From the IMG/VR virus record IMGVR_UViG_3300044858_005214, positions 1 through 46,352 of that record: a stretch of 46,352 nt of DNA; one strand, given 5' to 3'. Below the pieces are notes generated by a model. That model ran no database searches. It had not been told where the DNA came from and saw only the letters and a program-made list of their open reading frames with translations. Of the stretch, positions 12,472 through 43,882 are shown piece after piece (position 1 is the first letter of the stretch; the number at the start of each line of letters is the position of its first letter). Source of the DNA: a virus. A program made the translations under genes and the position numbers.

Positions 12472-13008
12472 TTAGTAATTTTTAAATTTTTTAAACATTT
12501 CTAATGTTTTGTTGACTTGCTCTTGTAATGGTTCAACCATCTCCTCATCTAAATTTTCGTCAAAACCCAATACTGAAATTTTACTGAATGATGGTTCATC
12601 ATCTTCATCATCAAAATGTAATTCATATGTAACCTCGTCATCTTCATCATCAAATGTTCCGTGTTCCATATCAGAACTACTATCACCAATCATATCTCTA
12701 CCATCAAAACCAACATATTCTGACTCAAATTCATCATCAGGGCCACCAAAATCAAATGAAATATCAGGTAAGTATTTTGCACCTGTCATTGCATCAGATT
12801 CGTTGATATTCATATTTGTATATGTTTTGACAACACCCTTGTTACTTACAGTAAGACCTTGTTTGTCATTTGCAAAATCTTGGACATATAATGGTTGTTG
12901 ATTTATTTGTTGTCCATATGTGGTCACGAAACCATCATAAACCTTTCTGTGTTGGTCTAAAATATCATTTCGTTCTGCTTGGTTCATTTTGAAAAAATAA
13001 GCGTTCAT
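12472..13008 (-). CDS. Acidic protein with variant N-terminal tag, 178 aa
   Basis: The N-terminus MNAYFFKMNQAERNDILDQH aligns with the tag of its neighbour at 13012 (ISESDRSHILNLYG), although the (I/L)-x-E site has changed to MNQ. The middle (residues 75-150) is rich in Asp and Glu, with DDEDDE repeats. Function is unknown. It starts 3 bases from the stop of the 13012 gene and belongs to the same operon. Confidence 0.6.
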   Translation of the reverse strand: MNAYFFKMNQAERNDILDQHRKVYDGFVTTYGQQINQQPLYVQDFANDKQGLTVSNKGVVKTYTNMNINESDAMTGAKYLPDISFDFGGPDDEFESEYVGFDGRDMIGDSSSDMEHGTFDDEDDEVTYELHFDDEDDEPSFSKISVLGFDENLDEEMVEPLQEQVNKTLEMFKKFKNY

Positions 13009-13011
13009 ATT

Positions 13012-14478
13012 TTAAATTTTATTAAGTTGATTTTGTATTTCCTGAGAATTAGGAATATTTTTTGTTTTTAGTAATTCAGCTATTTTTTTCGCTGTCAATC
13101 TATCCATTTTACCAATTGAGGTTGTTAATCCATTATCTGTTTGGAATTTTTTTAATTGTTCTTGTGTTTCAGCACCAAATTTTCCATCCGCACCAAATCT
13201 AGCTAACTTATATCCTAACAATTGTAACCCATCTTGGAATGTTTTTACATTCCCTTGAATAGTGTAAGCACCAGTATCACCTTCAAATTCAGCAACCTCT
13301 TCACCCATAAATGCTAATGATTCTGCAGATGTTTGGTCAGGGTTAGCATCAGGTATACTATTTAGTATATCATAATTTATATCACTACCATCACTATTTA
13401 ACAAATCAGCAGTTCTTTTGACAAAAAATGGAACTGCAACAGAATACCCTCTTCTACTCCAAGGTGCTCCAATGGCATCTTTCGTAAATTTCTCGATAGA
13501 CATTTCTGCGGGTATTTTTTCACCATTTTTTGAAATATAAGTAACAAGTACTTTAGAATCGGTGACATTATCAATCATTATTTTGTCCGTTTTGAAGGCA
13601 GCACCTTTTAAACGATAAGTTTTACCAGGAACAAACCCCAACTTCCTCAAAAAAAGAGGACCACTTTTTATTTTTGGTAATTTTTTAAAGAAGTTTTGCA
13701 ACCTAACTTTAAGTTGTTTACTTAATGTTAGTTGTCCTAGTTCTTTTGCTGTTGTTTTCAACAAACCAGGTTTTTTAACAACATCATCGGCAGTGGCTTT
13801 AACTCCAGGTGTTTTTGTACCTTTAGCTTTTGCCAAAACACCATCAAAAATAGTTTTTACTCTATCGTAAAATTTTTGAATATACTTGGATATATTATCT
13901 CCATGTTTACCTAAAATATTTCTAGCTAACTTTGATTGTAATGCTTTTTGAAGTAAATTTTTTATACCACCAAGAATTGTTCCTAAATTTTTTCCAATAA
14001 TTTCTAACGCGCCCAAAACAGCCTTTGAAGCAAATCCTCTACCTGTTTTTATTGCATTTTTTAAAACTGGGGCAACAGCTTGTAGTGGACCGGGTAATAT
14101 TACAAAAGCAAAAGTTATTGCTGCCATAGTGTATAGTGAATCTCTCTCCTCAGCAGGTTTAAATTGAGCTTCTATAATGTAACTGAGGGCATTCAAAGCA
14201 TCTACGATAGCTCCTGAACCGGGAATTACGAAGTCCATTCCAGCAGACAATAAATCAGCCCCTGTATGAAGAATATCACTGATACTCCAACCTTCCATAA
14301 TTGGAACTTCTTCACCTGTTTGACAAGAATATATTTTGTTTTCATACATAATATATTTTCCATCAGGTGTGTACTTACACTCTAACAATTTTTGTAAAGG
14401 TCTTACCTCATCCTTTACGATACCATATAAATTTAAAATATGACTTCTATCTGATTCAGAAATTATAAACTTTTGCAT
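13012..14478 (-). CDS. Tagged hydrophobic protein with C-terminal peptidoglycan-binding domain, 488 aa
   Basis: The tag FIISESDRSHILNLYGIVKDE opens the protein. Residues 60-190 hold long hydrophobic and glycine-rich helices around a FVIPGSGAIVDALNALSYI motif, similar to pre-toxin and membrane-inserting modules. Residues 405-488 form a peptidoglycan-binding domain (LQLLGYKLARFGADGKFG, then FQTDNGLTT). I infer a packaged protein that binds wall and enters membrane at infection. It is the first gene of the operon running down to 8638. Confidence 0.65.
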   Translation of the reverse strand: MQKFIISESDRSHILNLYGIVKDEVRPLQKLLECKYTPDGKYIMYENKIYSCQTGEEVPIMEGWSISDILHTGADLLSAGMDFVIPGSGAIVDALNALSYIIEAQFKPAEERDSLYTMAAITFAFVILPGPLQAVAPVLKNAIKTGRGFASKAVLGALEIIGKNLGTILGGIKNLLQKALQSKLARNILGKHGDNISKYIQKFYDRVKTIFDGVLAKAKGTKTPGVKATADDVVKKPGLLKTTAKELGQLTLSKQLKVRLQNFFKKLPKIKSGPLFLRKLGFVPGKTYRLKGAAFKTDKIMIDNVTDSKVLVTYISKNGEKIPAEMSIEKFTKDAIGAPWSRRGYSVAVPFFVKRTADLLNSDGSDINYDILNSIPDANPDQTSAESLAFMGEEVAEFEGDTGAYTIQGNVKTFQDGLQLLGYKLARFGADGKFGAETQEQLKKFQTDNGLTTSIGKMDRLTAKKIAELLKTKNIPNSQEIQNQLNKI

Positions 14479-14491
14479 ATTGTTTTTTTTT

Positions 14492-14499
14492 AATAAATA
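14492..14499 (-). promoter_or_regulatory. TATTTATT box at the head of the virion-type operon
   Basis: The minus strand reads GTATTTATTA, 13 bases before the ATG at 14478. Confidence 0.45.
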
Positions 14500-14519
14500 C
14501 TATAAACTATTTTGTTTAA

Positions 14520-14816
14520 TCAAATGTTATCCAATAATTGTTTTTTTGTTATGGTATAACTTTCTTCTATTTTTTTCTTTTTCTTTTTTTTGTTAAAATC
14601 TTTTTCATACATCCACTTATCAGCATCTTCTAATAAATTATAAGTTCTGCCATTATCCCATTTGACATTATATTGTTTGTGTCCAAACACAACTACATAT
14701 GGATTATTAAACTTATCTATAGGAACAACAACACCTCCTTCGTAAGTCATATTTGGTTCACCTTCCATAGTTAGTAGAATAACTCTATCACCAACCTTTA
14801 ATTCTGGATTAATCAT
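14520..14816 (-). CDS. Hypothetical protein with KOW/SH3-like strand pattern, 98 aa
   Basis: The first 70 residues are beta-rich with LKVGDRVILL and GGVVVPI turns, like a small barrel. A lysine run (about residues 76-83) follows, then an IEESYTITKKQLLDNI end that resembles the tag placed at the C-terminus. No function is known. It is divergent from the gene at 14860 and shares a palindromic box with it. Confidence 0.55.
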   Translation of the reverse strand: MINPELKVGDRVILLTMEGEPNMTYEGGVVVPIDKFNNPYVVVFGHKQYNVKWDNGRTYNLLEDADKWMYEKDFNKKKKKKKIEESYTITKKQLLDNI

Positions 14817-14831
14817 AATTTTAGTTTTGTA

Positions 14832-14845
14832 TATAAATATTTATA
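14832..14845. promoter_or_regulatory. Palindromic double box between divergent genes
   Basis: TATAAATATTTATA contains the TATTTATA box on both strands, 15 bases from the minus-strand ATG at 14816 and 14 bases from the plus-strand ATG at 14860. Confidence 0.5.
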
Positions 14846-14859
14846 CAATATTTATTATT

Positions 14860-15483: not shown

Positions 15484-15535
15484 TATTTGAGTTTTCAAGA
15501 TTTATATTTTATCCTTAAATCAAAAAGGATAAATT

Positions 15536-16563: not shown

Positions 16564-16833
16564 TCAAACAAAGGTAATCAGGACTTTTAATTCTTGATTA
16601 CCTTTTATTACTCTATGATATACACCTTCAGGTATATAATACTTTTCACCAATAACTAATTTTTTAGGGAATTCGTTGTCCATTTGTAAAAACCAATCAT
16701 CCCCATCCAATATTTCAACTAATCTATTTTCCCTATCACGATGCCATTTTAATTCCTCATCGTCAACATCAGGTGAAAATGTTCTTAATCGTTTATTACC
16801 AATTATTTCTTGTTCGAAAGGTAGTTTTTCCAT
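16564..16833 (-). CDS. Small cupin-like protein, 89 aa
   Basis: A short beta-barrel pattern is seen: KWHRDRENRLVEIL, GDDWFLQ, LVIGEKYYIPEGVYHRV, with His residues where cupins bind metal. I take the ATG that overlaps the upstream stop (TAATG) rather than one two codons earlier inside that gene. It could be a small sugar- or metal-binding cupin; the substrate is unknown. It is coupled to the 16833-17459 gene. Confidence 0.6.
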   Translation of the reverse strand: MEKLPFEQEIIGNKRLRTFSPDVDDEELKWHRDRENRLVEILDGDDWFLQMDNEFPKKLVIGEKYYIPEGVYHRVIKGNQELKVLITFV

Positions 16834-17459
16834 TACCAACTAGCACTTGACTTTAAACCCAATTTTTTTGCGTGTCGACCAACATTACAACTCCAATAAC
16901 CAGCAGTTGTTCTATCTTTCTTTTGGTCACACTTATGTCTTGCTCTAAATGATTTTGCTGCTTTTGGATTTCTATTTCTCACCTTTAGGTTGGGGTCACC
17001 AAATGTTACTTTCTTGATTGTTCCTTTTGGTGTTTTAACATATACCGCAAACTTTTTAGGTCCTCCTGGTGTTCTAAATGGTGAATTAAGTTTAACATTT
17101 TTTCCGTGATGTTTTGCTTCAAACAATAATTCTTCAACTTCCTCTTCATACATTGGAGCATCTAACCATACCTCATCCCCATTTTCTAATAAAACTTTTT
17201 TACCTAAATCTGACTCAACCAACCAAGTGTCCTCTTCATTCAATTCTATTTTACCATCATAATATAAGTTTCTTACCTCATTAATTAACTTAAAATATTT
17301 CTCAGAGTATATTCTAAAAATATTTTCATTCAATGGAATCTTATTTTCCAAATGATATTTTAAATCCTCAGAAATCATACAATGTTCAGTCAATTTCATT
17401 ACCGGATTTAGTGATTCTCTTAGAACTTTCTTTATTAAGTTATCTAACTTGGTACTCAT
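16833..17459 (-). CDS. Phage protein with conserved C-terminal RARHxC domain and tag-like start, 208 aa
   Basis: Residues 135-208 match a domain I recognise from many phages: KKFAVYVKTPKGTIKKVTFG, then KSFRARHKCDQKKDRTTAGYWSC. It has Cys and His spaced as in a small metal knuckle, and in my recollection is often annotated DUF5872. The N-terminus has LIKKVLRES, KLTEH and MISED, that is, three (I/L)-x-E-like sites in the first 32 residues, so it may be a tag variant. A GATATTTATT box precedes it. Confidence 0.6.
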   Translation of the reverse strand: MSTKLDNLIKKVLRESLNPVMKLTEHCMISEDLKYHLENKIPLNENIFRIYSEKYFKLINEVRNLYYDGKIELNEEDTWLVESDLGKKVLLENGDEVWLDAPMYEEEVEELLFEAKHHGKNVKLNSPFRTPGGPKKFAVYVKTPKGTIKKVTFGDPNLKVRNRNPKAAKSFRARHKCDQKKDRTTAGYWSCNVGRHAKKLGLKSSASW

Positions 17460-21962: not shown

Positions 21963-22640
21963 TTATTCTTTTTCCTCTTTTCCTGAGTATTTAACCCCCA
22001 TTATTGTACCGATTATACTAAATGCGTTAGTTAATAATATACCTAACATATTTGACCAAGTAGAACCAATCATTTGTGTATCTTTGTTTATTACTAAAGC
22101 CAAAATATACATAAATGTGGTTATAATACCGATAGATATAATAACACCTAATGCAATTCTCACGATGTTACCAATTAATTCGGTTTGTTTTTTCTTTTGT
22201 AGAACATCCAAATCATTAACCGCTGCAGTTTTGGCTTCTTCTGCTTGGATTCTTGCTAATTCTGACTTGGCCATCTCTTGTTGAAGTTCCACACTCATTC
22301 TTTGGTTGTCTTGTTGCCAAGCAAGTAACTCTCTATTTTGAACTTCGAAAGTCATTTTTGCCTCCTCAACCTCTTTCAAAGAAACTTGGAGTTCATCCAT
22401 TATTCTTTGATTTTCAGTATTGAGTTCAATTAGTTCTTTGTTCTTTTCCTGAACTTGTTTTGTTATTTCTAACCTTTTTTTTCTTGTTTCTTTATCTTTA
22501 TCCTTACAATTCTCAACATATTTAGCAAAATCAGGGTCATCTGAAGAGTCAATAATCTTCAAAATATTACCTTCTAAACCAATATTTTTCTTTTCGAGTA
22601 ATTCTATTAACTCTTGTTTTGTTTCCTTATTAAATTTCAT
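21963..22640 (-). CDS. Coiled-coil membrane protein of the kinase operon, 225 aa
   Basis: Residues 40-150 form a long coiled coil rich in Glu, Gln and Lys. Two hydrophobic segments follow (about 155-180 and 190-215), ending KYSGKEEKE. It is the third gene of a kinase-receiver-coiled-coil operon and its start overlaps the receiver stop by one base. It may be the output or scaffold partner of the two-component pair; this is inferred from context only. Confidence 0.65.
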   Translation of the reverse strand: MKFNKETKQELIELLEKKNIGLEGNILKIIDSSDDPDFAKYVENCKDKDKETRKKRLEITKQVQEKNKELIELNTENQRIMDELQVSLKEVEEAKMTFEVQNRELLAWQQDNQRMSVELQQEMAKSELARIQAEEAKTAAVNDLDVLQKKKQTELIGNIVRIALGVIISIGIITTFMYILALVINKDTQMIGSTWSNMLGILLTNAFSIIGTIMGVKYSGKEEKE

Positions 22641-23074
22641 TATTTATACACCTTAAATGAGGCAGTTCTTTTTTTATAGCCTTCATAATCTTTTTTGAAT
22701 TCTTCTAATCTAGGTTCGATATCATCAGATTTTATAATCCAAAATTGTGCGCCAGCTTGAACAGCTTTAGCTTGTTCTTCAGGTTCATTAGATGAGGATA
22801 TAATCCCTATAACCACATTATTACCATACTCAAAGTTAATCTTTCTAATCAATTCTATACCATCAAAGGAAGAACCAATTATATTTAAATCAACAAATAC
22901 ACACTCAGGTCTATCTGAATAATCACCACCCAACCATTTTTGAAAAAGTTTAGCGGCTTCATCAGAACTATTCAATGATTTTAGTGATAAACTAATATCT
23001 AATAAAGAACAAGCGTCTTCAAAAACTAAATGGAACAAGTCCTCATCATCTACCAACATTAACGAATCAATCAT
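22640..23074 (-). CDS. Response regulator receiver, 144 aa
   Basis: A single CheY-like receiver carries every active-site residue: acidic pair Asp9/Asp10, phospho-acceptor Asp62 in VFVDLN, the Ser of IISSS near 93-95, and Lys115 in IIKSDD. There is no DNA-binding output domain. It lies 14 bases downstream of the sensor kinase gene and would take its phosphate. An effector role through protein contacts is likely. Confidence 0.9.
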   Translation of the reverse strand: MIDSLMLVDDEDLFHLVFEDACSLLDISLSLKSLNSSDEAAKLFQKWLGGDYSDRPECVFVDLNIIGSSFDGIELIRKINFEYGNNVVIGIISSSNEPEEQAKAVQAGAQFWIIKSDDIEPRLEEFKKDYEGYKKRTASFKVYK

Positions 23075-23088
23075 TTTTTGTTTTTTTT

Positions 23089-25212
23089 TTATTTTATGTT
23101 TATTTTCATTTTAGTACCAATATCATTTTTTTCACATGTAATTTCAAATCCGTGTTCTTCTAAAATTGCAACACAAATATTTAACCCTAATCCTGTACCA
23201 CTCTCTTTTTGTCCTTCTTTTCTTGTATATGGTTTTGATAAATGGTCGAAATCTTGTTGAGTGATTCCTCTACCATTATCTTGTATTATTAACAAATCCC
23301 CCTCCATAAATATTTTAACAAATTTCGTATCAGAATCGTTATATTTCAAACCATTTCTTATCAGATTATCAATTGATGTACAAAACAATGACTCATTCAC
23401 ATCTTTAGTTATTAATTCCTCGATATGAACCTGACTTTTGTATGAGGTTGTTGTTAAGTAACTTTCTAAAATACTTTTTAGATTACATTCTGTTTTATTT
23501 AATACAACATCTTTTTTTACTAAGTTTGTAAATTCATAAACACCTTTATAAACTTTTTGAGCATGGCTCAACCCATCTTTAATCATTTTAAATGGTGCTG
23601 TTATTTTTAACTCCTCTATTTGTTCAATAGTTAATCTTCGTTCTAATGAACTAACTCCCCTAGGTATGTATGTGTTAATACCTGAGTGCATATCGTGTCT
23701 TAGAATCTTTGCTGCGTGTTCTAAATAAGTGTTCTTTTTCTCAATTTCTATTGATTGTGTAATTCTATCAGTTATATCTGTTGCAATTTTCATTACTCTT
23801 TGTACTTTACCATCTATATCAAATACAGGATTATATGAAGCTTGAATCCAAACTTTGTTTTTATCTTTAGTAAACCTTAAAAACTCATCAGTAACATATT
23901 CTCCACTTTTTAACAATTTCCAAAACTCTTTATATTCAGGAGATTTTGAATATTCCTTTGAAACAAAAATCTTATGATGTTTACCTTTTAATTCTTTTTC
24001 TTCATAACCCATTTTTTCACAGAATAAACTATTAGCAAACATAATTTTACCATCCAAATCAAACTCAATAACCATATTCGATGTATTAATAGCATTCATC
24101 CTATTTTTTATATCAATTTCTTTTTTCTTGACTTCTGTTACATCATATCTGATTGACATATACCCCAAAAACTTACCATTTTCATCAAAATCACCTTTTA
24201 TATATGAATCAACCCAATATAAGTTACCATTTTTATCCCTATTTGTAACAATCTCATTCCAAATCTTTTTCTCAACGACAACATCTTTGTACATATTAGC
24301 CCAAAACTCCTTGGGATGTTTACCCGAATTAACAATACTATGGTCTTTTCCTCTTACTTCATCTAAAGACCATCCAGATACTTCCTCAAACTTTTTATTT
24401 ACATATGTTATTCTACCTTTATTGTCCGCTTTAGAAACCAAAACAGATGTATCAACAAACTTTTCGAACTCTTGTAAATTACCTCTCAAAATATTACTTT
24501 CTTTAACCGAATAAGCAAAAGAATATAGTGATGATAACATTTGAGCAAAGTTAACTTCTAATCCAATCCATTCCCTTAATGTTTTACTCTCAATACACAC
24601 AACACCAATTACATCGCCTCTGTACATAATTGGAACATCCAACATAGATTTAATACCAAGGGGTTTCAAATACCCTTCAACAAAACAATATGTTGCGGTA
24701 TGAGTTTCAGCATTGTTTGCAATAATAATCGGATTGATTTCTAAGTGTTCAAAATAGGCGATAAAATCTTTTTTATACATTTCCGCCCCACTATACCATT
24801 CATCTTCTTTTTTAATATAAAGTTGTTGACAGATAATTGAGGTTTTATCTGAATTATATAACCAAATTGAACATCTATCAGCATCAATTGATTCTGTTAC
24901 TTCCTTTGTTAAAGTTTTTGCCCCATCCTTTACATTTCCTTGATAAAATAATGAATTGTGTGATTGTGATATAAGAACTTTGTTAAGTTTTTTGGAGTAT
25001 TGTGTTAATTTTATATTATGTTTTAATTTATTAGTATATTCTTTTACCAAGATTGAAAAGAATGGTAAAAAAACAATAAAACAAGATAATTCAATTATTT
25101 TGATTAATTGTAGTGCGTCATTTATAAAAAATAATGAAATCATCTTCATTATAAAGAAAATTGACATAATTAAAACTGAAAAGTAAATAGAAATTTTAAC
25201 CTTGATTGACAT
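23089..25212 (-). CDS. Sensor histidine kinase with GAF and two PAS domains, 707 aa
   Basis: Two membrane segments lie in the first 55 residues. A GAF domain follows (about 90-235), then PAS domains with attached PAC motifs (about 250-365 and 370-490). A HisKA-like helix carries the phospho-His in LRHDMHSGIN (near 510). The HATPase domain (about 600-707) has intact N (DNLIRNGLKYN), G1 (DNGRGI) and G2 (GTGLGLN) boxes. The catalytic machinery looks complete. Full sensor kinases are very unusual in phages. A TATTTATA box lies 19 bases before the start. Confidence 0.92.
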   Translation of the reverse strand: MSIKVKISIYFSVLIMSIFFIMKMISLFFINDALQLIKIIELSCFIVFLPFFSILVKEYTNKLKHNIKLTQYSKKLNKVLISQSHNSLFYQGNVKDGAKTLTKEVTESIDADRCSIWLYNSDKTSIICQQLYIKKEDEWYSGAEMYKKDFIAYFEHLEINPIIIANNAETHTATYCFVEGYLKPLGIKSMLDVPIMYRGDVIGVVCIESKTLREWIGLEVNFAQMLSSLYSFAYSVKESNILRGNLQEFEKFVDTSVLVSKADNKGRITYVNKKFEEVSGWSLDEVRGKDHSIVNSGKHPKEFWANMYKDVVVEKKIWNEIVTNRDKNGNLYWVDSYIKGDFDENGKFLGYMSIRYDVTEVKKKEIDIKNRMNAINTSNMVIEFDLDGKIMFANSLFCEKMGYEEKELKGKHHKIFVSKEYSKSPEYKEFWKLLKSGEYVTDEFLRFTKDKNKVWIQASYNPVFDIDGKVQRVMKIATDITDRITQSIEIEKKNTYLEHAAKILRHDMHSGINTYIPRGVSSLERRLTIEQIEELKITAPFKMIKDGLSHAQKVYKGVYEFTNLVKKDVVLNKTECNLKSILESYLTTTSYKSQVHIEELITKDVNESLFCTSIDNLIRNGLKYNDSDTKFVKIFMEGDLLIIQDNGRGITQQDFDHLSKPYTRKEGQKESGTGLGLNICVAILEEHGFEITCEKNDIGTKMKINIK

Positions 25213-26870: not shown

Positions 26871-27851
26871 ATGAAAACAATTATTAGATTAACAGAAAAT
26901 GATTTATACAAAATTGTTAAGAGAGTAATCTCAGAACAAGTAAGTGATGAAAACAAAGCAGGAAATTACCTTAAAAATAGTGTCCCATATTCTTTCAAAG
27001 GTCTATTTCCAATAAGACCAGATGTACAAAGTGCAACAATAACCTTCGATAGAACCCTTGGTAACATACCATCACCTCAAATTACCAAACAACCTATCAA
27101 TGTTGCAGGTATTGAAAATGGTGTTCATTTTTTTATTAAAGATGAATCAGAAAGTCTGAAGTCTTATTTGAACTCCGTTTTGACTATGAACCTAAATAGT
27201 CTTGCAGGAAAACTAACAATAAATGGACAACCTTTAGACCAAGGGAGACCAGTTGACGAACCAAATGTAGGACCTACTTTTTACACAATTAGTAATGAGT
27301 TTAATAAATTGATTGGTGACCTTTCTTCAGGATTAGGTTTGTCAGGAAATCTGAACCCAAACAACGTTATGACATTTGTTAATTCAGTACCATCTATGAC
27401 TAGAGATGAATTAAATAATATTATGAGAGCTGTAGAAAGTTTCAGAAAAGCATTCGGAAACTTCAAGACTGAGTTTGAAAAAAAGGGTGTTCAAGGACTT
27501 GATTTAGGTAAATTTTCTAACGTTGAAAAATATGGTCAAGCTTACTTTGGTGATAAAATGCAAGTGTATCTAACATTACAAGTTGATGATACAGGTGATG
27601 ACCAATTGGATTCTAAATATGAAACATTCCGTGATATGATTGGACAACAATATTTGGAATTTGTAAAAAATGGAATAAAACAGAATAACATTTTTATACC
27701 TTCTTTAGAATCATTGTTTAAGGCGAGTCCAAGAATTAAAAACGAAATTGATAAAGGCGGTATTGGGGGAATGAACAAACTAAATCCTAAAATAAGTAAA
27801 CTTGTTGTTGTGGTTTATTCACCAAATCCTGGAGGTGTAGAACTTGCTTAA
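26871..27851 (+). CDS. Tagged hypothetical protein, 326 aa
   Basis: The tag is textbook here: IIRLTENDLYKIVKRVISEQ. The remaining 300 residues are soluble, of mixed alpha/beta pattern, with no recognised domain. An N-terminal strand-rich part (about 40-120) is followed by a helical part with YFGDKMQVYLTLQVDDTGDD near 225. I infer a packaged protein whose tag would be cut after RLTE or ISE. It is a single gene flanked by a terminator. Confidence 0.7.
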   Translation: MKTIIRLTENDLYKIVKRVISEQVSDENKAGNYLKNSVPYSFKGLFPIRPDVQSATITFDRTLGNIPSPQITKQPINVAGIENGVHFFIKDESESLKSYLNSVLTMNLNSLAGKLTINGQPLDQGRPVDEPNVGPTFYTISNEFNKLIGDLSSGLGLSGNLNPNNVMTFVNSVPSMTRDELNNIMRAVESFRKAFGNFKTEFEKKGVQGLDLGKFSNVEKYGQAYFGDKMQVYLTLQVDDTGDDQLDSKYETFRDMIGQQYLEFVKNGIKQNNIFIPSLESLFKASPRIKNEIDKGGIGGMNKLNPKISKLVVVVYSPNPGGVELA

Positions 27852-28685: not shown

Positions 28686-29063
28686 ATGAGAAGAACTGTA
28701 AGATTAACTGAAAGTGATTTAGTTAAATTAGTAAAAAGAGTAATCAGTGAACAAGCAACAAGTTGTATGGAACCATTACAATCTCATTTAGAGGGTATGA
28801 TGAACTTAGGTCCTAATTTCAAAGAAGGCCAAAAGAAACCATATAGAGATTTGCTTATTCAAAATTGTAGTGCTCTTGAAAGTTACATAAAAAGTAACCC
28901 TAATGTACAATTTGGTACAGAAACATTAAAAGCAAATAAGACAGCATTTGCATGTGTAACTTCTGTTAATTTTGGCAACAAAGAAGAGGATAAAGATATG
29001 GCTGTTGCTTTAGCTAAAGTTGGGGCTTTTGTAAATTGTGTAAAAGGTTCTGGTGGTAAATAA
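28686..29063 (+). CDS. Tagged small hypothetical protein, 125 aa
   Basis: The tag RLTESDLVKLVKRVISEQ is followed by a 100-residue helical domain with four Cys (SCMEP, QNCSAL, ACVTS, NCVKG). The Cys spacing suggests disulfides and hence a periplasmic destination after delivery. No family is recognised. A strong terminator follows. Confidence 0.7.
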   Translation: MRRTVRLTESDLVKLVKRVISEQATSCMEPLQSHLEGMMNLGPNFKEGQKKPYRDLLIQNCSALESYIKSNPNVQFGTETLKANKTAFACVTSVNFGNKEEDKDMAVALAKVGAFVNCVKGSGGK

Positions 29064-30554: not shown

Positions 30555-30857
30555 CTAATCCTCAAAATATTTTACATATTTTTTTATTGTTTGTCTTCTT
30601 TTTTTGTCGTCCACATCCGCAAATACATCAACAAGTAAATTATCAATTTTATCAATCAACTTTTTAAAGTTACCTCTTACAGGAACTGACTTGTCATCAA
30701 CTAAAATCCTATATTTACCAAAGTATTCCTGAAATTCTGTTGGAACTTCATTGACTGGAAAATTTCTCCTCAAATAAACTAAAACTTTATCGTCAGCTTC
30801 TGTGTATTTGGCAAGTATATCCTCTTTTTCTTCTTCTGTAAGTACTATTCTTTTCAT
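30555..30857 (-). CDS. Tagged hypothetical protein, 100 aa
   Basis: Starting at ATG 30857 gives the tag RIVLTEEEKEDILAKYTEAD; an earlier in-frame ATG lies upstream of the box. The body (LRRNFPVNEVPTEFQEYFGK, then DDKSVPVRGNFKKLIDKID) is soluble and of unknown fold. It ends KKRRQTIKKYVKYFED, another basic helix. Confidence 0.65.
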   Translation of the reverse strand: MKRIVLTEEEKEDILAKYTEADDKVLVYLRRNFPVNEVPTEFQEYFGKYRILVDDKSVPVRGNFKKLIDKIDNLLVDVFADVDDKKRRQTIKKYVKYFED

Positions 30858-32120: not shown

Positions 32121-33416
32121 GTGAAAAAAATTGTCATTTCTGAAGAAGAAAAAAAACATATAAAAGGTCTATACAAAATTAATGAACAAGGAAAATCTCC
32201 TTTAGACATTATTTTTAGTACAGCATTAGATAAATTAGAAAAATTTAGAAGAGGTGAAATTGACCCTGAAGATATGACAACATCTGATTCAACATCCGAT
32301 AGTAGTGAATATGATTCTTCATTAGTATCAAGTTTCGAACCTGGAGAATTTTTTGTACATCCAAATGCTGAATCTTTTAAAATTACTTACGGACCATCAG
32401 CAATAAAATTAAATTCACCCTCTGAATTGTTACTTAAAAGTATTTTTGCTCAAGCAAATACATCAAATTTGAAAGTTACAAGTACTTTAAGAACGTATGA
32501 AGACCAAGCGAGAGTTAATAAACAAAATAGTAGGTCAAATATAGCATCTTGGTATGGACAAGATGTGGTAAATGTTTGGGATAAATATATGTCAGGTGAA
32601 TTAACACAAAAACAATATGCTGATTTTTTAGAAGATAGAGATAAAAAAAGAGGTAAAGTTTTAAGTAACCATATACCTGGATTTGCTATCGATGTTGCAC
32701 CATATAGTGAACAATTTGCAAGTGCCGCAGAAAAATTAATGAAAACCCCAAACTCTGGGATAAGAAAGGTTCTAAGAGAAAAGAATAATAACGCTGTTCA
32801 CATAGAATTCAATTTTCCTGTGACAGATAAAGGTGGTATTGGCACGATTCCAAAAATGCCATCAAAAAAAGAAGAAAAAAGATTTGATAAACAAATGTCT
32901 AAGGGGGGTATCATTGTTGATAAAAATAATAATACATCAAATTATGCAATTGTTTTCGGTGGTTCACCAAGTAGTTCATATGGTGCTCAGTTTATGTTTG
33001 ATAAAGGTTCAAAAATACTTTCAGACAAAAATGTAGTTTATAGTAATTTTGAAAATTCATTGGACAATGTTTTGAATCAGATTAAATTACAAGACCCTAA
33101 GGCTAAAATAACTTCAGTAAGTGGATTTTCAGCTGGTGGTAAAAATGCTTGGGAGGCAGCAACTAAAGGTTATAAGGTGGGTTTAATTGACCCAGTTGTA
33201 CCTGATTTTGCAACTCAATTTGTTGGTTCTAATTTTAATGGTGAATTACCCTCAAACATCAAAATGATATCAAGACAAGAAAATTGGTCGGGGCAATTTA
33301 GAAAACATGGTGAAAGATTAAAAAACTTAGAGTCGACTCAACCTGAGGTACGAAGAAATGTTAAACATGCCGATATGCCAAGTCAATTTTTTAGTGACTT
33401 TAAAAACTTTGTGTAA
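32121..33416 (+). CDS. Tagged M15 peptidase fused to an alpha/beta-hydrolase-like domain, 431 aa
   Basis: A GTG start gives the tag VISEEEKKHIKGLYKINEQ, then a PLDIIFSTALDKLEKFRRG segment shared with the next gene. Residues 105-240 are an M15 D-Ala-D-Ala peptidase-like domain with SNHIPGFAIDVAP (His and Asp zinc ligands) and VHIEF (His ligand). Residues 270-431 look like a serine hydrolase with nucleophile elbow SGFSAGG and possible Asp/His partners (GLIDPVVPD and VKHADM). The fusion would cut wall peptides and perhaps an ester. It forms an operon with 33429. Confidence 0.75.
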   Translation: MKKIVISEEEKKHIKGLYKINEQGKSPLDIIFSTALDKLEKFRRGEIDPEDMTTSDSTSDSSEYDSSLVSSFEPGEFFVHPNAESFKITYGPSAIKLNSPSELLLKSIFAQANTSNLKVTSTLRTYEDQARVNKQNSRSNIASWYGQDVVNVWDKYMSGELTQKQYADFLEDRDKKRGKVLSNHIPGFAIDVAPYSEQFASAAEKLMKTPNSGIRKVLREKNNNAVHIEFNFPVTDKGGIGTIPKMPSKKEEKRFDKQMSKGGIIVDKNNNTSNYAIVFGGSPSSSYGAQFMFDKGSKILSDKNVVYSNFENSLDNVLNQIKLQDPKAKITSVSGFSAGGKNAWEAATKGYKVGLIDPVVPDFATQFVGSNFNGELPSNIKMISRQENWSGQFRKHGERLKNLESTQPEVRRNVKHADMPSQFFSDFKNFV

Positions 33417-33428: not shown

Positions 33429-34265
33429 ATGTCAAGAAGAATGATAATCTCAGAAAATGAGAAAAATAGAATCAAAAGTTTGTATAAAATAATTGAACAA
33501 GAAATAAATCCTTTAGATATTATTTTTAAAACCGCAATGAAAAAACTAGATGATTATAGAAGTGGTAAAATTTCACCTGATGCCGATAATAAAGATACCG
33601 AATCAGATACTGAAATCGATGATAAAACTACTCCGTATAAATCAAGTGGTAAAGGCGATTTTTATGACATAACAAAAAAGGTTATTGAAAATTTTGAAGG
33701 CGGTTATTGGAATCCTGAATGTGCTGGTTATCCAGGTTCAAAACATCCTCGTAAAACAGGAATGTATAGTAGGTCAGGTGAAACAATGTTCGGATTGGAT
33801 AGAGAAGCAGGTAAGATTGAAGATATATCCTCAGATGGAAAAAAATTCTTTCAGTTGATTGATGACCAAAAAGAAAAGATGGGTATGGATAATTTTTGTA
33901 AAAAATGGACTTGGAATTATAGGGGTGGTGAAATTAAAAATCAATTACTTGATTTAGCAGTAAAAACTATGAAAAGTTTGTTTGATAAAAATTCAAAAAA
34001 TTATTTATCTGAAAAAGCAAGAAATATTGTAAATAATAGTAATCCATTATTATTACACTTCTCATACGCCACGTGGAATGGTCCTGGTTTCTTCAAAGAT
34101 TTTGCAAAAAGTATTAATAAAGGTGTTGATGAAGGCAAATCAGAGAAGGAATTAGTCAAAATCGCTAAAAACGATAGAGACAGAAGATTAGGTGGTGGTG
34201 CATGGGCTAAAGCAAACGAAAAGGTAAAAGCTCTCATTGATAAAGAAGCCTCAGGTATAGTATAA
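33429..34265 (+). CDS. Tagged putative lysozyme-like protein, 278 aa
   Basis: The tag IISENEKNRIKSLYKIIEQ and the following 30 residues (NPLDIIFKTAMKKLDDYRSG) copy the 32121 protein, so the N-terminal 55 residues were duplicated. Residues 80-278 resemble phage N-acetylmuramidase/GH108-type enzymes: VIENFEGGYWNP with a candidate catalytic Glu, GMYSRSGETMFGLD, and a DRRLGGGAW end. The family call is tentative. It follows the 32121 gene by 12 bases. Confidence 0.6.
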   Translation: MSRRMIISENEKNRIKSLYKIIEQEINPLDIIFKTAMKKLDDYRSGKISPDADNKDTESDTEIDDKTTPYKSSGKGDFYDITKKVIENFEGGYWNPECAGYPGSKHPRKTGMYSRSGETMFGLDREAGKIEDISSDGKKFFQLIDDQKEKMGMDNFCKKWTWNYRGGEIKNQLLDLAVKTMKSLFDKNSKNYLSEKARNIVNNSNPLLLHFSYATWNGPGFFKDFAKSINKGVDEGKSEKELVKIAKNDRDRRLGGGAWAKANEKVKALIDKEASGIV

Positions 34266-35897: not shown

Positions 35898-36356
35898 TTA
35901 AACTGGATAAACTGCGTTGATTTGGAGTTGGTAAGTTTTTTCAAACCAAGCTTTCAACATTTTTTCGAAAAGTTCTTTACCAAAAGCACCTGAAACATTC
36001 TTAAGTTCCCAAGCATGATATTCTAAATTGTAATCGTCTGAATTGTCTACTGGTAATACTTTAAACACATATTCATCGTCTTCCCAATCTATTTCAGGGT
36101 CAACATAATAAACATATGCTTGGTATATATCATAAGTCTTAAAATCTTCATACTCCCTCTGAACTTCAATTAGATTTTCATACTTCTCCATCATAGAATC
36201 AAACAAGTTTTTTAATCTTTCTTCCTTGTTTTCATTAACAAACTTTAACTTATTTGTAATTCTAAATTCATTTTTATTAAGTTGATGATGAAGTTCCCAG
36301 TTATGAATTGAGTTATTGTATTCTTCCAATAATATTTTTTTAATTATCTTTTTCAT
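35898..36356 (-). CDS. Hypothetical protein with shortened tag, 152 aa
   Basis: MKKIIKKILLEEYNNS resembles the basic half of the tag with LLEE as its site. The body is acidic with aromatic strands (DEYVFKVLPVDNSDDYNLEYHAW). No family is recognised. It starts 3 bases after the stop of the tagged lysozyme at 36360, so the two are co-expressed. Confidence 0.55.
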   Translation of the reverse strand: MKKIIKKILLEEYNNSIHNWELHHQLNKNEFRITNKLKFVNENKEERLKNLFDSMMEKYENLIEVQREYEDFKTYDIYQAYVYYVDPEIDWEDDEYVFKVLPVDNSDDYNLEYHAWELKNVSGAFGKELFEKMLKAWFEKTYQLQINAVYPV

Positions 36357-38626: not shown

Positions 38627-39076
38627 TTACCTATAATAAAATTTATTTTGTATGAATTGTTCAATTATATCCCAATTATCTGAGTAATAATCTTCGTTGG
38701 AAATATACGATGGCTCAAACTCATAATCATAATCTCTACCATCGTGAAATTCTTGCATACTTCCTGTCAATTCAAACATTTCACCATTATCTAATTCCTT
38801 TGTGAATGTGACATCATCACCATCAAATTCAACATTACCATAAAACTTTTGTTCAAAATGAACTTGGATTGGGAAACTCTTACTGAAAATATTTTTTAAT
38901 TCATTATGTAATTGAACTTTGATAGCATTTTCTCTTTTGAAACTTTCCTCACCAGGAAGAATAATCTCAAGCATCTTGCCTGTGAAGTAAACATCAACAA
39001 TTTCATTCTTAAATGATTTCTTGACATATCTTATTACAGCATCTTCAAATTGACTTTCAGTTATTATAATTTTCAT
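38627..39076 (-). CDS. Tagged acidic protein, 149 aa
   Basis: ATG 39076 overlaps the upstream stop (ATGA) and gives the tag IIITESQFEDAVIRYVKKSF. The body is acidic with beta-strands (VQVHF-type pattern, ELTGSMQEF). It resembles the 39529 and 39806 proteins in plan: a tag, then a small strand-rich domain, acidic in the middle. These may be tandem paralogues. Function is unknown. Confidence 0.65.
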   Translation of the reverse strand: MKIIITESQFEDAVIRYVKKSFKNEIVDVYFTGKMLEIILPGEESFKRENAIKVQLHNELKNIFSKSFPIQVHFEQKFYGNVEFDGDDVTFTKELDNGEMFELTGSMQEFHDGRDYDYEFEPSYISNEDYYSDNWDIIEQFIQNKFYYR

Positions 39077-40286: not shown

Positions 40287-40296
40287 AATTTTTTAA

Positions 40297-40304: not shown

Positions 40305-40313
40305 TACTTCTAT

Positions 40314-40352
40314 AAAAAAAAGGTTAGGGACTCAATACGAGTGAAACAAGGA
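40314..40352 (-). repeat. Dispersed repeat, copy A (diverged)
   Basis: The plus strand reads an A run, then GGTTAGGGACTC, AATACGAGTGAAACAAGG. It matches copies B-D at most positions and lies between the archaemetzincin stop and the box of the 40-aa gene. Confidence 0.6.
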
Positions 40353-40368
40353 AATCATCAGATAATAT

Positions 40369-41019
40369 TTAATTATTTTGGTGTTTAAAAGAAAAAGGTC
40401 TTTTTATTATTTGACAACACTTTTTACACAACCATTTTTTTTCTTTATCTATTTGTTTGATAGTCCCTTTAGCATCATTCATCAAACATTCATTATCAAA
40501 ATCACAATGTTCTAAACCTAAATTATGACCTATTTCATGTAAACATACTTTTTCAACCCTTTCTTTTATAATTTCTTTAGATACATTTTTTTTCATTCTG
40601 AATGTTGATACAACACAAGTGTTTCCAGGTCTATATCCCAAACCAAGAATACCCCATTCATCAATCATACCCTTTTTCATTGTAATATCAATTTCAGTAA
40701 TAATTAATAGATTTTGATTTGAGTCAAATTTTTTTAATATTGTACTTGCACAATATCTTTTTTTACTTTTGGAAAGTAAATCATCAGTTAATTCAACACG
40801 TGGTTTTATTTCACACTTATAATTGTAAAAGGACTCAACTGAATTTTTGATGATGTTTAAATATTCTGGTGAAACATCACCTAAAGGTAGGATATTAATT
40901 TTTGGTTTAATATCTGTTTTTTTAATATTTTTAGATATCTTTTCATTTGTTGGTTTACACGATAATAGAAATATTGATGTCACCAAAATTGTTGTAAGTA
41001 TTATAATTGTATTTTTCAT
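40369..41019 (-). CDS. Archaemetzincin-like lipoprotein, 216 aa
   Basis: The complete M54 signature is visible: HEIGHNLGLEHC, four residues, CLM, 17 residues, CKKC. The N-terminus is a lipoprotein signal with lipobox LLSC near residue 20, so the enzyme would be anchored on a membrane outside the cytoplasm. It is paralogous to 7299-7940, with which it shares the two zinc sites but little else. A host-type promoter box lies upstream. Confidence 0.88.
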   Translation of the reverse strand: MKNTIIILTTILVTSIFLLSCKPTNEKISKNIKKTDIKPKINILPLGDVSPEYLNIIKNSVESFYNYKCEIKPRVELTDDLLSKSKKRYCASTILKKFDSNQNLLIITEIDITMKKGMIDEWGILGLGYRPGNTCVVSTFRMKKNVSKEIIKERVEKVCLHEIGHNLGLEHCDFDNECLMNDAKGTIKQIDKEKKWLCKKCCQIIKRPFSFKHQNN

Positions 41020-41023
41020 AATA

Positions 41024-41031
41024 CAAAGATA
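41024..41031 (-). promoter_or_regulatory. Host-type -7 box TATCTTTG before the archaemetzincin
   Basis: An exact TAnnTTTG match on the minus strand, 4 bases before the ATG at 41019; it would give a leaderless message. Confidence 0.45.
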
Positions 41032-41071
41032 ATAAACAAAGACCTAACTACAAAAGATTTTCTTATTGTAA

Positions 41072-42142
41072 TTACACAAAATTACTAGTACCTTGAGCCC
41101 CAAGTGATTGAGGAGATGGGCATACCTCACTATTTAACATTTTATCGAAATAATTTTTAGAATTATCAACCAAATAGTTCTCATTGGATTCTGATAATAC
41201 AAAAACTTTAGCTTTATCCCAATATTTTTGTAAAATATTCAAAAATTCTGTTGTTAAATTTATGCAACCATATGATAAATCTAAATTTAAACCACCAGTG
41301 GATACCGCATTTATAAATTCCTTTTTTGCCTCAGGGTTTTTAACATCTCCCAAAAACTTTTTTGCCTTTTGTAATACTAATGTTCGTGGTTGTTCTAGGT
41401 AATAACCATGAATTGCTTGTGTGTATTGTTTGTTATTTTGAACCAAATGTTTTATATTATTTATCTTTCCCGCATACGATGCGTCACTCGTAATCGTACC
41501 CATATCATAAACACCAGGAGAGGTAAACCTCTTGTTATTTCTATCTATCCAATCATACACATAATCATGATTGTATTTTCTATTCTGACTTGTTTGGTCA
41601 ACATATCCCTTACCATTAATCCATTTAAAACCCGCTTTGATAGCTGACTCATCCCAAGATAACATAGCATTTGCTATATCCGTAGGGTTAGTGGGTTGTT
41701 TGTTTTTTCCTGAAATAATTACATCTTTCGCAATAAAATTACCATTCGGGTCAAACAGATATATCAATTGATTTAAAGTGTCAACTACAATCAAATTATA
41801 AGTTCTCATCAATGGTCTAATACAATTCAAAGCAATTTCACAAGAAATTCTATCATTCTTTATTGTTTTATAATACATTTCAGCTCTTTTATTTATTAAA
41901 TTATTAATATAATTCCAAATAGTTGTATCAACTGTAATCGATGGTAAATTAAGTTGTTTTTTGTAAAAATCGTAAATATTTTCAATATCAACAATTTGTT
42001 TAGAGTCCTTATTAATATAAGGACAAAATTGTTTTTGTCTCTCTGATGATTTTTTAATTTCAGGTTTTGATTCTTGTTCACTCAAAATACCATACAATAA
42101 TTTGATTAAAACCTTTTCCTCCTCCGTAATTCTAACTTTCAT
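41072..42142 (-). CDS. Tagged L,D-transpeptidase-like protein, 356 aa
   Basis: The tag RITEEEKVLIKLLYGILSEQ opens the protein. A YkuD-type catalytic region lies at about residues 235-315: AIHGYYLEQPRT (His) and LSYGCINL with the nucleophilic Cys in S-x-G-C. The upstream part (about 120-230, YNLIVVDTLNQLIYLFDPNG) fits the family N-terminal strands. These enzymes form or cut 3-3 peptide cross-links in peptidoglycan. In a phage it could reseal or remodel the wall after entry. Confidence 0.8.
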   Translation of the reverse strand: MKVRITEEEKVLIKLLYGILSEQESKPEIKKSSERQKQFCPYINKDSKQIVDIENIYDFYKKQLNLPSITVDTTIWNYINNLINKRAEMYYKTIKNDRISCEIALNCIRPLMRTYNLIVVDTLNQLIYLFDPNGNFIAKDVIISGKNKQPTNPTDIANAMLSWDESAIKAGFKWINGKGYVDQTSQNRKYNHDYVYDWIDRNNKRFTSPGVYDMGTITSDASYAGKINNIKHLVQNNKQYTQAIHGYYLEQPRTLVLQKAKKFLGDVKNPEAKKEFINAVSTGGLNLDLSYGCINLTTEFLNILQKYWDKAKVFVLSESNENYLVDNSKNYFDKMLNSEVCPSPQSLGAQGTSNFV

Positions 42143-42153
42143 AAATTTTTATT

Positions 42154-42161
42154 TATAAATA
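42154..42161 (-). promoter_or_regulatory. TATTTATA box before the transpeptidase gene
   Basis: The minus strand reads GATATATTTATAAA, 11 bases before the ATG at 42142. Confidence 0.45.
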
Positions 42162-42173
42162 TATCAGTCAAAT

Positions 42174-42207
42174 AATAATCCCCACCTATGTAAGAGTGGG
42201 GATTATT
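42174..42207. terminator. Terminator after the HD-domain gene
   Basis: AATAATCCCCAC/GTGGGGATTATT forms a perfect 12-bp stem with a 10-base loop, between the 42213 stop and the transpeptidase box. Confidence 0.7.
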
Positions 42208-42212
42208 AAATT

Positions 42213-42830
42213 TTAAACCAACCTTCTAATTATTTCTCGTATCTTGGCTTCAGATATATTTGTACCTCCACCATCCAACTTATCAGTAAAACCTTTCAAC
42301 TTATCAAATGCTGGATGAGAAGATATTGGTTCTTTTTTTGCATCCTTCATAACATCCCAAGTTGATGGCTTAATCTTCATATGGTTTTTAACCAAATATT
42401 TTATTTCATCAACATCAGTTCCTTCATAAGATTCAACCCAATCTCTAAATTGTTCAACATATTTTTCTGATTTATCTTCATGTCCATATGCGGTAGGTTC
42501 TCCTGTCTTAGGATTAATTCCATAGGTATCCATTTTACCCAAATCATGAAATAATGCGGTCATTATCATATTGGGGTCATCAGGATAATGATGATACGCC
42601 CTCTTGATTACAACCAAAATATGTTTTAATGAATTACCCTCAGGATGCCATTTTGGATTCTGTTTTGCATCCCATTGTTTGAATAATAATTCTTTTAATT
42701 CTTGGGGTAAATCATCATATAATTCTCTATACGATTTTGGAAATTCTTTTTTGTTTTCTTCCATTTCATTTATTGTTTGTTTAACCAAACTTAATAAATC
42801 TCTTTCAGTTAGTCTAATTATTTTTTTCAT
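42213..42830 (-). CDS. Tagged HD-domain phosphohydrolase, 205 aa
   Basis: The tag IIRLTERDLLSLVKQTINEM is followed by an HD domain at about residues 60-165: NSLKHILVVIKRAYHH (first His), TALFHDLGKMDTYG (His-Asp pair), GHEDKS (His) and a distal VKNHMK. Such proteins hydrolyse nucleotides or cyclic dinucleotides. A packaged enzyme of this kind could destroy signal nucleotides at entry, but the substrate is unknown. Its ATG lies 3 bases from the stop of 42834. Confidence 0.85.
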   Translation of the reverse strand: MKKIIRLTERDLLSLVKQTINEMEENKKEFPKSYRELYDDLPQELKELLFKQWDAKQNPKWHPEGNSLKHILVVIKRAYHHYPDDPNMIMTALFHDLGKMDTYGINPKTGEPTAYGHEDKSEKYVEQFRDWVESYEGTDVDEIKYLVKNHMKIKPSTWDVMKDAKKEPISSHPAFDKLKGFTDKLDGGGTNISEAKIREIIRRLV

Positions 42831-42833
42831 ATT

Positions 42834-43370
42834 TTAGTTTTTATTTATAAAGTCATTATATACATTCTCATCAAAGAAAAATCTACCCCCCAATTCCACA
42901 GAATTAACACCATAGTCATATCTATAATCATTATCAAGATATGCCTTGATTAAATCACCACCATCCACAGTTATGGTTACCAATGGAGAACCCTTTTTTT
43001 CATATGAAACATCATCATCCACCCTTTCCTCATTTCCCTCACCAATATATTCAAAGTCATCATTCATAAAACCCAATAACATATCAACCTCTTGCTTTAA
43101 TCTTTCAGGATTTATATAATCACCATAGTTAGAAAAGAAATCATCAATTTCATCCTTAAATTGTTCATAGGTAGGATATTCACTTGATTCATCATCATTT
43201 GTCATTTCAAATTCATCATCACCATCCATTTCCATTAATGGTTTTACATTTCCCAAACTTGATTTCAATAATTTATTGAATTTTTGTGTTTCAACAATCA
43301 AGGAATTATTATATTGTTCCAAGATTCTATTTTTTTCTTCACCAGATAAATCGTTTAATAAATGTTTCAT
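42834..43370 (-). CDS. Acidic protein with variant tag, 178 aa
   Basis: MKHLLNDLSGEEKNRILEQYNN is a variant of the ISEEEKxxI form, with LSGEEK at the site. A second VETQKFNKLLKSSL segment follows. The body is acidic (MEMDGDDEFEMTNDDESSE) and ends in a strand-rich domain. It is first in an operon with the HD gene. Confidence 0.6.
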   Translation of the reverse strand: MKHLLNDLSGEEKNRILEQYNNSLIVETQKFNKLLKSSLGNVKPLMEMDGDDEFEMTNDDESSEYPTYEQFKDEIDDFFSNYGDYINPERLKQEVDMLLGFMNDDFEYIGEGNEERVDDDVSYEKKGSPLVTITVDGGDLIKAYLDNDYRYDYGVNSVELGGRFFFDENVYNDFINKN

Positions 43371-43381
43371 AATTTTTTATT

Positions 43382-43389
43382 TATAAATA
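43382..43389 (-). promoter_or_regulatory. TATTTATA box before the 42834 operon
   Basis: The minus strand reads ATATATTTATAAAT, 11 bases before the ATG at 43370. Confidence 0.45.
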
Positions 43390-43400
43390 TATTTTATTTC

Positions 43401-43440
43401 AAAAAAGGGGTTGGGGATTGAATACGACCGAAGGGAGAAA
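43401..43440 (-). repeat. Dispersed repeat, copy B
   Basis: The plus strand reads AAAAAAGGGGTTGGGGATTG, AATACGACCGAAGGGAG. It lies directly after the stop of the 43448 gene and before the 42834 box. Confidence 0.7.
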
Positions 43441-43447
43441 AATTATA

Positions 43448-43882
43448 TTATAATAACCCCATTATCGATTTAATCTCCATCTTCAATTTATCAAAATCAG
43501 GCATCTTAAAATAACCCTGCCATACCAATGTCTTCCCATTCTCCATATTCATTGTCGTACCCACTCCATTAATTAATTTCTTTGACAGTTCAACATTAGA
43601 TGTGGGACTAGTAACAAACAAACGATATGTACTCTCATCATCAACAATCTTAGGTCCAACCTTCAACTCTAATTCCCCACCATTCTTACCCTTATAATAT
43701 AATTGATTGTTGACAAAAACCATCCCCAATTCCTTACCAATCTTTTCCATATCAATCTTACCTTGAAAGGTGGGAACACCAGGAGGAGCTTGGTCAATAT
43801 ACAAATCAACATTCTGCTCAGAAATTATTCTATTTACCAATTTAATTAATTCACCCTCTGTTAATCTTATAATTCTTTTCAT
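43448..43882 (-). CDS. Tagged hypothetical protein, 144 aa
   Basis: The tag IIRLTEGELIKLVNRIISEQ is followed by a short Pro-rich linker (DQAPPGVPTF) and a strand-rich domain (GKNGGELELKVGP, YRLFVTSPTSN). No family is recognised. A box lies 13 bases upstream, and a repeat copy lies on each side of the gene (B and C). Confidence 0.7.
   Translation of the reverse strand: MKRIIRLTEGELIKLVNRIISEQNVDLYIDQAPPGVPTFQGKIDMEKIGKELGMVFVNNQLYYKGKNGGELELKVGPKIVDDESTYRLFVTSPTSNVELSKKLINGVGTTMNMENGKTLVWQGYFKMPDFDKLKMEIKSIMGLL

Follow-up and report, generated by a model that had tools for sequence, protein, structure and literature searches.

A probable capsid-targeting propeptide, expanded and diversified on unrelated proteins of a large uncultured phage

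The internal proteins of phage T4 carry leaders of 10-19 residues that are capsid-targeting sequences (CTS); these proteins co-purify with the scaffold gp22, and gp21 cuts behind L/I-x-E, according to the accessible part of one report (PMC9026906). The accessible descriptions name four such T4 proteins, IPI, IPII, IPIII and the Alt propeptide (PMC9026906, PMC3012670). In SPN3US, phiKZ and 201phi2-1, as far as the available text goes, many head proteins lose an N-terminal propeptide at a glutamate site, and the protease is T4 gp21-like; an ASE-20 site is named, the propeptides of SPN3US mostly measure 111-254 residues, with two of 20 and 24, and 9 substrates are given for SPN3US against at least 19 for phiKZ and 201phi2-1 (PMC10052503). 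Freshwater Bacteroidetes myophages are described, again in the accessible text, as carrying bS21 on the opposite strand among terminase, portal, prohead protease and capsid genes (PMC9723584). Here we analyze 46,352 bases of an uncultured, large virus of Bacteroidota (IMG/VR record IMGVR_UViG_3300044858_005214; "the window" hereafter means this whole stretch), in which a short basic module stands at the N-terminus of many proteins with unrelated cargoes.

Our results favor the view that this module is very probably a capsid-targeting propeptide like the T4 CTS, greatly expanded and diversified, and the evidence that it works in the T4 manner is strong but indirect. The same reading had been proposed in a first-pass annotation of the window, and it gains support from the agreement of an encoded S77 prohead protease and T4-like head genes, a cleavage motif at the end of the N-terminal tag, exchange of tags between cargoes, co-occurrence of tag and protease, and a promoter-like element upstream of tagged genes. 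We infer from these observations that a tagged protein would be made late, that its basic helical leader would join it to the scaffold core of the prohead, and that the S77 protease would then cut behind (I/L)-x-E. The freed cargo would lie inside the head and be ejected with the DNA, for injection into the host. Several interchangeable leader types would be used in this way on tens of proteins per genome.

With one window protein (41072; proteins are named by their first coordinate) as query, the same species was recovered in longer records. The window corresponds to positions 88,900-135,243 of G001, a 147.9-kb record of this species, at 99.96% identity, and G003 adds 45.5 kb beyond G001 at 99.99% identity. 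Four phages were scanned, the focal species, two further records (G008 and G012) and Flavobacterium phage immuto, giving 1226 crudely predicted proteins. Since open reading frames were called by a crude longest-frame rule, which missed 32121, the module counts per genome are probably low and some starts wrong. Iterated profiles, the search in this genome and in other phages that the first-pass annotation had proposed, found the module at the N-terminus of 114 of the 1226 proteins (focal species 32/283, G012 46/353, G008 26/365, immuto 10/225), so that the large genomes hold 26-46 tagged proteins each, as found here. The first-pass division into three sub-forms was too narrow: the focal species has at least five (A-E), of which D (TIRRILRE) and E (LQEQLNRIxxMMG) occur outside the window and intergrade. 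N-terminal and internal matches among the 1226 proteins were 36 and 1 for form A, 14 and 3 for B, 37 and 1 for C, 15 and 3 for D, 9 and 2 for E, 4 and 0 for F, 2 and 1 for G, and 4 and 0 for H; some of the internal matches look like wrong start calls, because they begin at a methionine.

In a wider set of the four genomes and 286 loci, 458 module proteins fell into 297 cargo clusters, 201 of them singletons; as some of the loci are overlapping stretches, the 458 proteins represent 415 distinct sequences. At G001 136,897-141,786 (L018:3897-8786) form C occurs in nine genes in a row, an amplified family in which several cargoes are related, and minus-strand form D and E genes follow at G001 141,787-147,595. 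Within the latter stretch, a 637-residue protein (L018:12682-14595; G001 145,682-147,595) opens with form E and carries this module again at residue 397, an arrangement like that of a fusion of two tagged proteins. Searches of named phages by tblastn returned no match for a 23-residue consensus of the module, for protein 26871 or for protein 41072. As a separate observation, in the huge phage LR756508 (484 kb) the scaffold and capsid genes are flanked by runs of genes whose leaders are short and basic and end in E (for example MRLKNVLLKEQ and MKLKGILKEA; L359:732-2808, L359:17721-23600), and these runs are possibly another set of tagged proteins.

Two lines of evidence link the module to head maturation. 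First, the T4-type prohead protease on which the first-pass annotation had staked its reading, and the scaffold it had proposed to look for, are both present in the 147.9-kb record. The head genes lie outside the window, and a search of the window record alone found no S77. G001 encodes a Peptidase S77 of 240 residues (PF03420, E 7.5e-24, 80.6 to 80.8 bits versus a cut-off of 27), which also matches PHROG 207, head maturation protease (E 3.6e-42). The neighboring capsid protein is of the Gp23 type (E 1.9e-73), while position, composition and similarity to relatives serve to name a portal, a terminase and a scaffold, the last of them acidic. Secondly, the leaders tend to end in the motif of this protease. 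An (I/L)-x-E ending at residues 10-30 was found in 89 of the 110 module proteins of at least 80 residues versus 280 of 921 other N-termini; the same 110 proteins carry it at residues 41-61 in 25 cases, and composition shuffles of residues 2-30 gave 52.6 +- 4.8 (maximum 68). By form, the motif at residues 9-32 is present in 35/36 (A), 12/14 (B), 23/36 (C), 10/10 (D), 7/8 (E), 4/4 (F), 2/2 (G) and 3/4 (H).

The capsid proteins point to the same motif. At their processing site, 20 of 21 aligned capsid proteins have (I/L)-x-E (LINE↓, LIYE↓, LLKE↓; the arrow marks the point behind the glutamate) and that of immuto has VSE↓. In five of these capsid proteins, aligned with those of T4, P-SSM2, Vibrio phage D479 and Microcystis phage Mel-JY01, this site coincides with FLTE↓A of T4 gp23, which we take to be where gp23 is cut. 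A motif of the (I/L)-x-E type also lies within most of 24 protease N-termini. Leader and processing site are tied together by a protein family adjoining the capsid gene (focal member G001 49,987-50,925), whose leader varies both in sequence and in length, from about 7 to 22 residues; 14 of its 15 members have (I/L)-x-E as the leader's end and the remaining one has V-x-E. In most members the conserved part starts at the motif, and several then read AT(S/T)D..G, like the mature capsid N-terminus. The short members L331 and L335 start later, at DL(A/S)VWFG, a stretch that follows L-T-E in the focal protein, and some leaders of the family resemble plain form D (MNIRNIVKKILRE). Form D was also compared with how the conserved head-cluster protein 58219 begins, and the resemblance was not significant. 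Inside the minus-strand head cluster lies a plus-strand gene that by eye and context encodes bS21 (G001 58,031-58,222; L014:1031-1222), and seven other fetched head clusters hold a similar bS21-like gene.

The module is exchanged between cargoes, and from phage to phage a homologous cargo can stand behind another form. Of 96 cargo clusters with at least two members, 17 bear more than one form, several of them weak or transitive (for example L043/g12_170820 and L082/g12_244713), and exchanges of D for E are between intergrading forms. One cargo stands behind A (...LLTE↓GLNNT) or B (...YLME↓GLGNT), another behind D (...LLNE↓TKFFRRRI) or E (...TINE↓SKFFHRRI), and a pterin dehydratase-type enzyme has D or E. 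By eye, a cargo with YMFFSNLEQM follows form A in G008 and in the focal phage, and in L339 and L341 its start is D-like. When the exchange boundary was checked by the start of BLAST alignments, these extended into the module; in the clear cases the boundary coincides with the (I/L)-x-E motif.

Tagged genes also share an upstream element. Among genes of at least 70 residues with an upstream gap of at least 35 bases, TATTTAT lies within 45 bases of the start in 44 of 46 module genes (10/11, 12/12 and 22/23) and 128 of 312 non-module genes (34/97, 50/111 and 44/104) of the three large genomes; in immuto the counts are 2/3 and 14/63. When genes of the focal species are classed by position, it precedes 10/11 module, 9/17 structural and 7/30 early- or metabolism-like genes (module versus early, P 1.5e-4; structural versus early, P 0.057). 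In 48 of 60 occurrences at module genes the element starts 11-13 or 21-24 bases ahead of the start codon. These two groups, spaced by roughly one turn of the helix, are seen at 26871, 41072, 43448 and further module genes, and at head genes too. The protease, scaffold and terminase genes all have TATTTAT upstream, and in its placement it looks like a late-promoter element with very short leaders.

Across IMG/VR, a DNA pattern for form A matched at least 120 stretches, with 80 loci in 78 records among the matches listed. S77 was present in 24 of the 50 largest of these 78 records (7/7 at 290 kb or more, 12/17 at 100 kb or more) and in 7 of 50 control records, the largest among 80 listed loci found by an unrelated transfer RNA pattern (7/20 of the controls at 100 kb or more). 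Of the 26 module-bearing records with no S77, 25 had no Gp23 match either; the other, G034, had one below cut-off. Its locus L032 matches the focal species at 100% identity, so that G034 is a piece, itself without S77, of a phage that does carry the protease. The focal terminase, found in the positive control G012, was absent from 11 tested S77-negative records and two control records, which may therefore be fragments or different phages. The form A profile matched four control records, of which two had S77. Twenty head clusters were fetched, 18 from module-bearing and two from control records, and seven of them have a form-A-like gene no more than two genes away from the protease.

One leader resembles the scaffold itself. 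The two immuto proteins of form G begin MKKQILSEQF(K/R)RMQ(F/K)LAGIITES, and the next best match of the form G profile among the 1226 proteins is the last residues of the immuto scaffold (SEQVSRWQKLAGIIK, E 2.8e-4). Among 276 proteins of Mel-JY01 and part of LR756508, its best two matches are scaffold-like C-terminal ends (E 0.019 and 0.15). Conversely, when these three scaffold tails are combined into a profile, the matches that come next after the immuto scaffold itself are precisely the two form G proteins (E 3.7e-5 and 0.0047 among 1226 proteins; 1.4e-4 and 0.019 among 4804). The result should be interpreted with some caution, as a selected one, because several forms were tried. A resemblance of focal form E to the focal scaffold tail was suggestive in a matrix scan and not significant in reciprocal profile searches. 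We tentatively suggest, as a possibility somewhat short of even, that head loading is modular: interchangeable leaders, at least one of them (form G of immuto) a scaffold-tail look-alike, would let dozens of proteins co-assemble as false scaffold until the protease frees them.

Within the window, the proteins were scored with profiles of forms A to E built from 206, 38, 88, 18 and 16 non-redundant leaders, from which focal-genome proteins and any protein whose residues 1-25 equal those of a focal protein were excluded; the members themselves had originally been collected by profiles whose seeds came in part from this species. At a threshold of 8 bits at the N-terminus, 16 of the 19 proteins listed as tagged in the first-pass annotation were called. 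None of 21 hand-picked window proteins outside this list reached it, the best scoring 4.1 bits, and neither did any of 460 shuffled N-termini, where the best score was 5.0 bits. Of the three that were missed, 17805 is retained through its L043 orthologue, 39806 is doubtful and 12472 is dropped. Two of the four weaker candidates, 16833 and 35898, proved to carry form D, and 11917 and 34268 fell below the threshold. Coordinates, strands and N-termini had all been given correctly. Of the domains named there behind the module, Pfam confirmed the GH24 lysozyme and the HD hydrolase; the M15 peptidase and L,D-transpeptidase are motifs recognized by eye only. The proteins are as follows (aa, amino acids; scores are those of the leader profile unless a Pfam family is named).

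26871..27851 (+): form A, 326 aa, orphan cargo; 38.6 bits, TATTTAT upstream
28686..29063 (+): form A, 125 aa, orphan cargo; 42.7 bits
37132..38043 (-): form A, 303 aa, helical cargo; 41.4 bits, weak tape-measure-like PHROG matches
42213..42830 (-): form A, 205 aa, HD hydrolase; 38.9 bits (PF01966 23.2 bits, cut-off 22)
43448..43882 (-): form A, 144 aa, orphan cargo; 42.1 bits
17805..18332 (+): degenerate form A, 175 aa; 2.0 bits, the L043 orthologue (cargo 76% identical) bearing a form A module
13012..14478 (-): form B, 488 aa, C-terminal peptidoglycan-binding domain; 31.0 bits (PF01471 37.4 bits)
32121..33416 (+): form B, GTG start, 431 aa, M15-peptidase-like by eye; 33.5 bits (PF18979 below cut-off)
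33429..34265 (+): form B, 278 aa; 21.0 bits
41072..42142 (-): form B, 356 aa, L,D-transpeptidase-like by eye (SYGCIN); 8.2 bits, E 0.033, no Pfam match
30555..30857 (-): form B, 100 aa from ATG; 24.0 bits, module kept in the L099 orthologue
42834..43370 (-): form B, long sub-form MKHLLNDLSxEEKNRI, 178 aa; 22.5 bits
14860..15483 (+): form C, 207 aa from ATG; 12.5 bits
36360..37046 (-): form C, 228 aa, phage lysozyme (GH24); 22.0 bits (PF00959 E 5.3e-26)
38627..39076 (-): form C, 149 aa; 26.3 bits
39073..39516 (-): form C, 147 aa; 13.1 bits
39529..39816 (-): form C, 95 aa; 13.6 bits
39806..40129 (-): doubtful form C start, 107 aa; 5.2 bits, L073 and L048 homologues starting alike
16833..17459 (-): form D, 208 aa, basic C-terminal domain behind LFE↓A; 12.1 bits, relatives having the same domain behind LLSE↓A, LLTE↓A or FLNE↓A
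35898..36356 (-): form D-like, 152 aa; 9.4 bits
12472..13008 (-): look-alike start with no cleavage motif in the leader; no profile match

For 12472, (I/L)-x-E was also looked for in the leaders of the orthologues and was absent there too; from its sequence, this start is probably not a removable tag.

Elsewhere in the window, 5015-6412 encodes by eye a TROVE/Ro60-like or von Willebrand-type protein, and 22640-25212 a PAS-containing sensor kinase with an adjoining response-regulator-like gene, which is unusual for a phage. Two short proteins (7299-7940 and 40369-41019) have, by eye, HExxHxLGLxH zinc-peptidase motifs, and one of them a lipoprotein-like start. Outside it, G001 at about 16-42 kb (L011 to L013) contains a long gene block with, by eye, glycosyltransferases, methyltransferases and sugar-nucleotide enzymes.

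Several results weigh against a capsid-targeting propeptide. S77 is lacking in 5 of the 17 module-bearing records of at least 100 kb and in the form-A-positive controls G064 and G065; conversely, five of the seven S77-positive controls have no form A match, so the protease does not imply form A. The motif count (89 of 110) is partly circular, since profiles select similar sequences that share the motif; the stronger argument is that the forms are dissimilar and yet tend toward the same (I/L)-x-E ending. With the motif in only 23 of 36 form C leaders, some tags may stay on. TATTTAT is absent upstream of the capsid and portal genes. Finally, in reciprocal profile searches no form of the focal lineage significantly matches the scaffold tail, and no likeness is apparent by eye in the tails of the T4, P-SSM2 and Vibrio phage D479 scaffolds.

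The cargoes bear on the first alternative, an uncleaved virion assembly signal that docks proteins on the tail, baseplate or capsid surface. Pfam (E 0.001) assigned 18 families among 104 module proteins and most cargoes had no family match; members include peptidoglycan binding (3), phage lysozyme (2), receptor L domain (2), LysM, GH19, pterin dehydratase, GNAT, HD and others. Among the 25 of 35 PHROG families listed, endolysins lead, and PADLOC on the same 104 proteins gave two marginal matches to Cas10 models, one member each. Peptidoglycan-related domains are the largest recognized cargo group, and peptidoglycan enzymes are often located on phage tails; moreover, form C often has no second cleavage motif. 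Both points would suit docking. However, it is the head protease whose motif the leaders show, in the clear cases this is also where the exchange boundary lies, 7 of 20 head clusters have a form-A-like gene close to the protease, and the pterin dehydratase, GNAT and HD cargoes do not suggest a tail function, which together make docking unlikely. The cargoes, called "effectors" in the first-pass annotation, are candidates for such a role.

A second alternative, that the module sorts proteins within the host cell during infection (to a membrane, the periplasm or a phage compartment) and has nothing to do with the virion, we consider very improbable. It draws on two cargoes whose homologues have hydrophobic, signal-like starts in place of the module: for 32121 a G008 homologue of part of the protein, with a signal-peptide-like start, and for 41072 an L099 homologue. 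The module, however, is basic and short and has no hydrophobic core, it tends toward the prohead protease motif at its end, and matches to the form A pattern come almost exclusively from phage records, with at least 120 stretches in IMG/VR versus 4 in 84,980 species genomes. Together with the wall-enzyme cargoes, the hydrophobic-start homologues fit a delivery of wall enzymes from the virion and are no proof of it. Least probable of all is a recombination or translation-initiation cassette, in which genes were copied with their 5' ends and the peptide is functionless: tandem arrays such as the nine form C genes do share their start, and the form A codons for R6, E9, D11, L12 and V16 vary less than would be expected from genome usage, but those for L7 and T8 are as varied as in the genome at large (0.30 and 0.30 versus 0.35 and 0.33) and that for E22 equals genome usage, so that the peptide rather than the DNA seems conserved, and a cassette would leave module exchange and the cleavage motif unexplained.

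The packaged proteins of T4 include a restriction inhibitor and an RNA-polymerase modifier, but for the many orphan proteins of large phages we know of no generally applicable means of picking out those that accompany the DNA into the cell. Should the module be a capsid-targeting propeptide, a simple profile would name candidates for injected proteins in any such genome, uncultured phages included; capsid loading would be an exchangeable module, with new tags for loading phage heads, and the scaffold-tail resemblance would suggest what such tags bind. If head loading is modular as well, the injected protein set of uncultured phages could be read from sequence.

In conclusion, this kind of tag is already known in T4, and its scale, its interchangeable forms and the scaffold-tail resemblance look new. 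No description of these leaders was found in the titles and opening abstract lines returned by a literature search whose coverage omitted most subscription journals and all of bioRxiv, and the accessible parts of PMC5512222 and PMC7824862 do not describe them. As in the T4 system, so far as its CTS are described in the available texts, a short N-terminal leader on unrelated proteins ends in L/I-x-E and a gp21/S77 protease is encoded; this likeness is drawn from the described features. Unlike T4, with four tagged proteins in those texts, the large phages found here have 26-46 each (32 in the focal species), with at least five leader forms in one species that are exchangeable between cargoes, and packaging here is a prediction from sequence. 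The phiKZ-like phages, in the accessible account, likewise have a leader before a glutamate site and a gp21-like protease, and differ in motif, which is (I/L)-x-E here. Theirs is reportedly A/S-x-E. Like the bS21 myophages, G001 has a bS21-like gene on the opposite strand within its head cluster; the N-terminal module found here is not mentioned for them in the accessible text (PMC9723584). A cultured relative, Flavobacterium phage immuto (NC_055915; host Flavobacterium sp. LMO8), resembles the focal species in its T4-like head cluster and in having leader families, on 10 proteins, and differs in the leader sequences themselves (forms F, G and H), of which form G resembles the scaffold tail.

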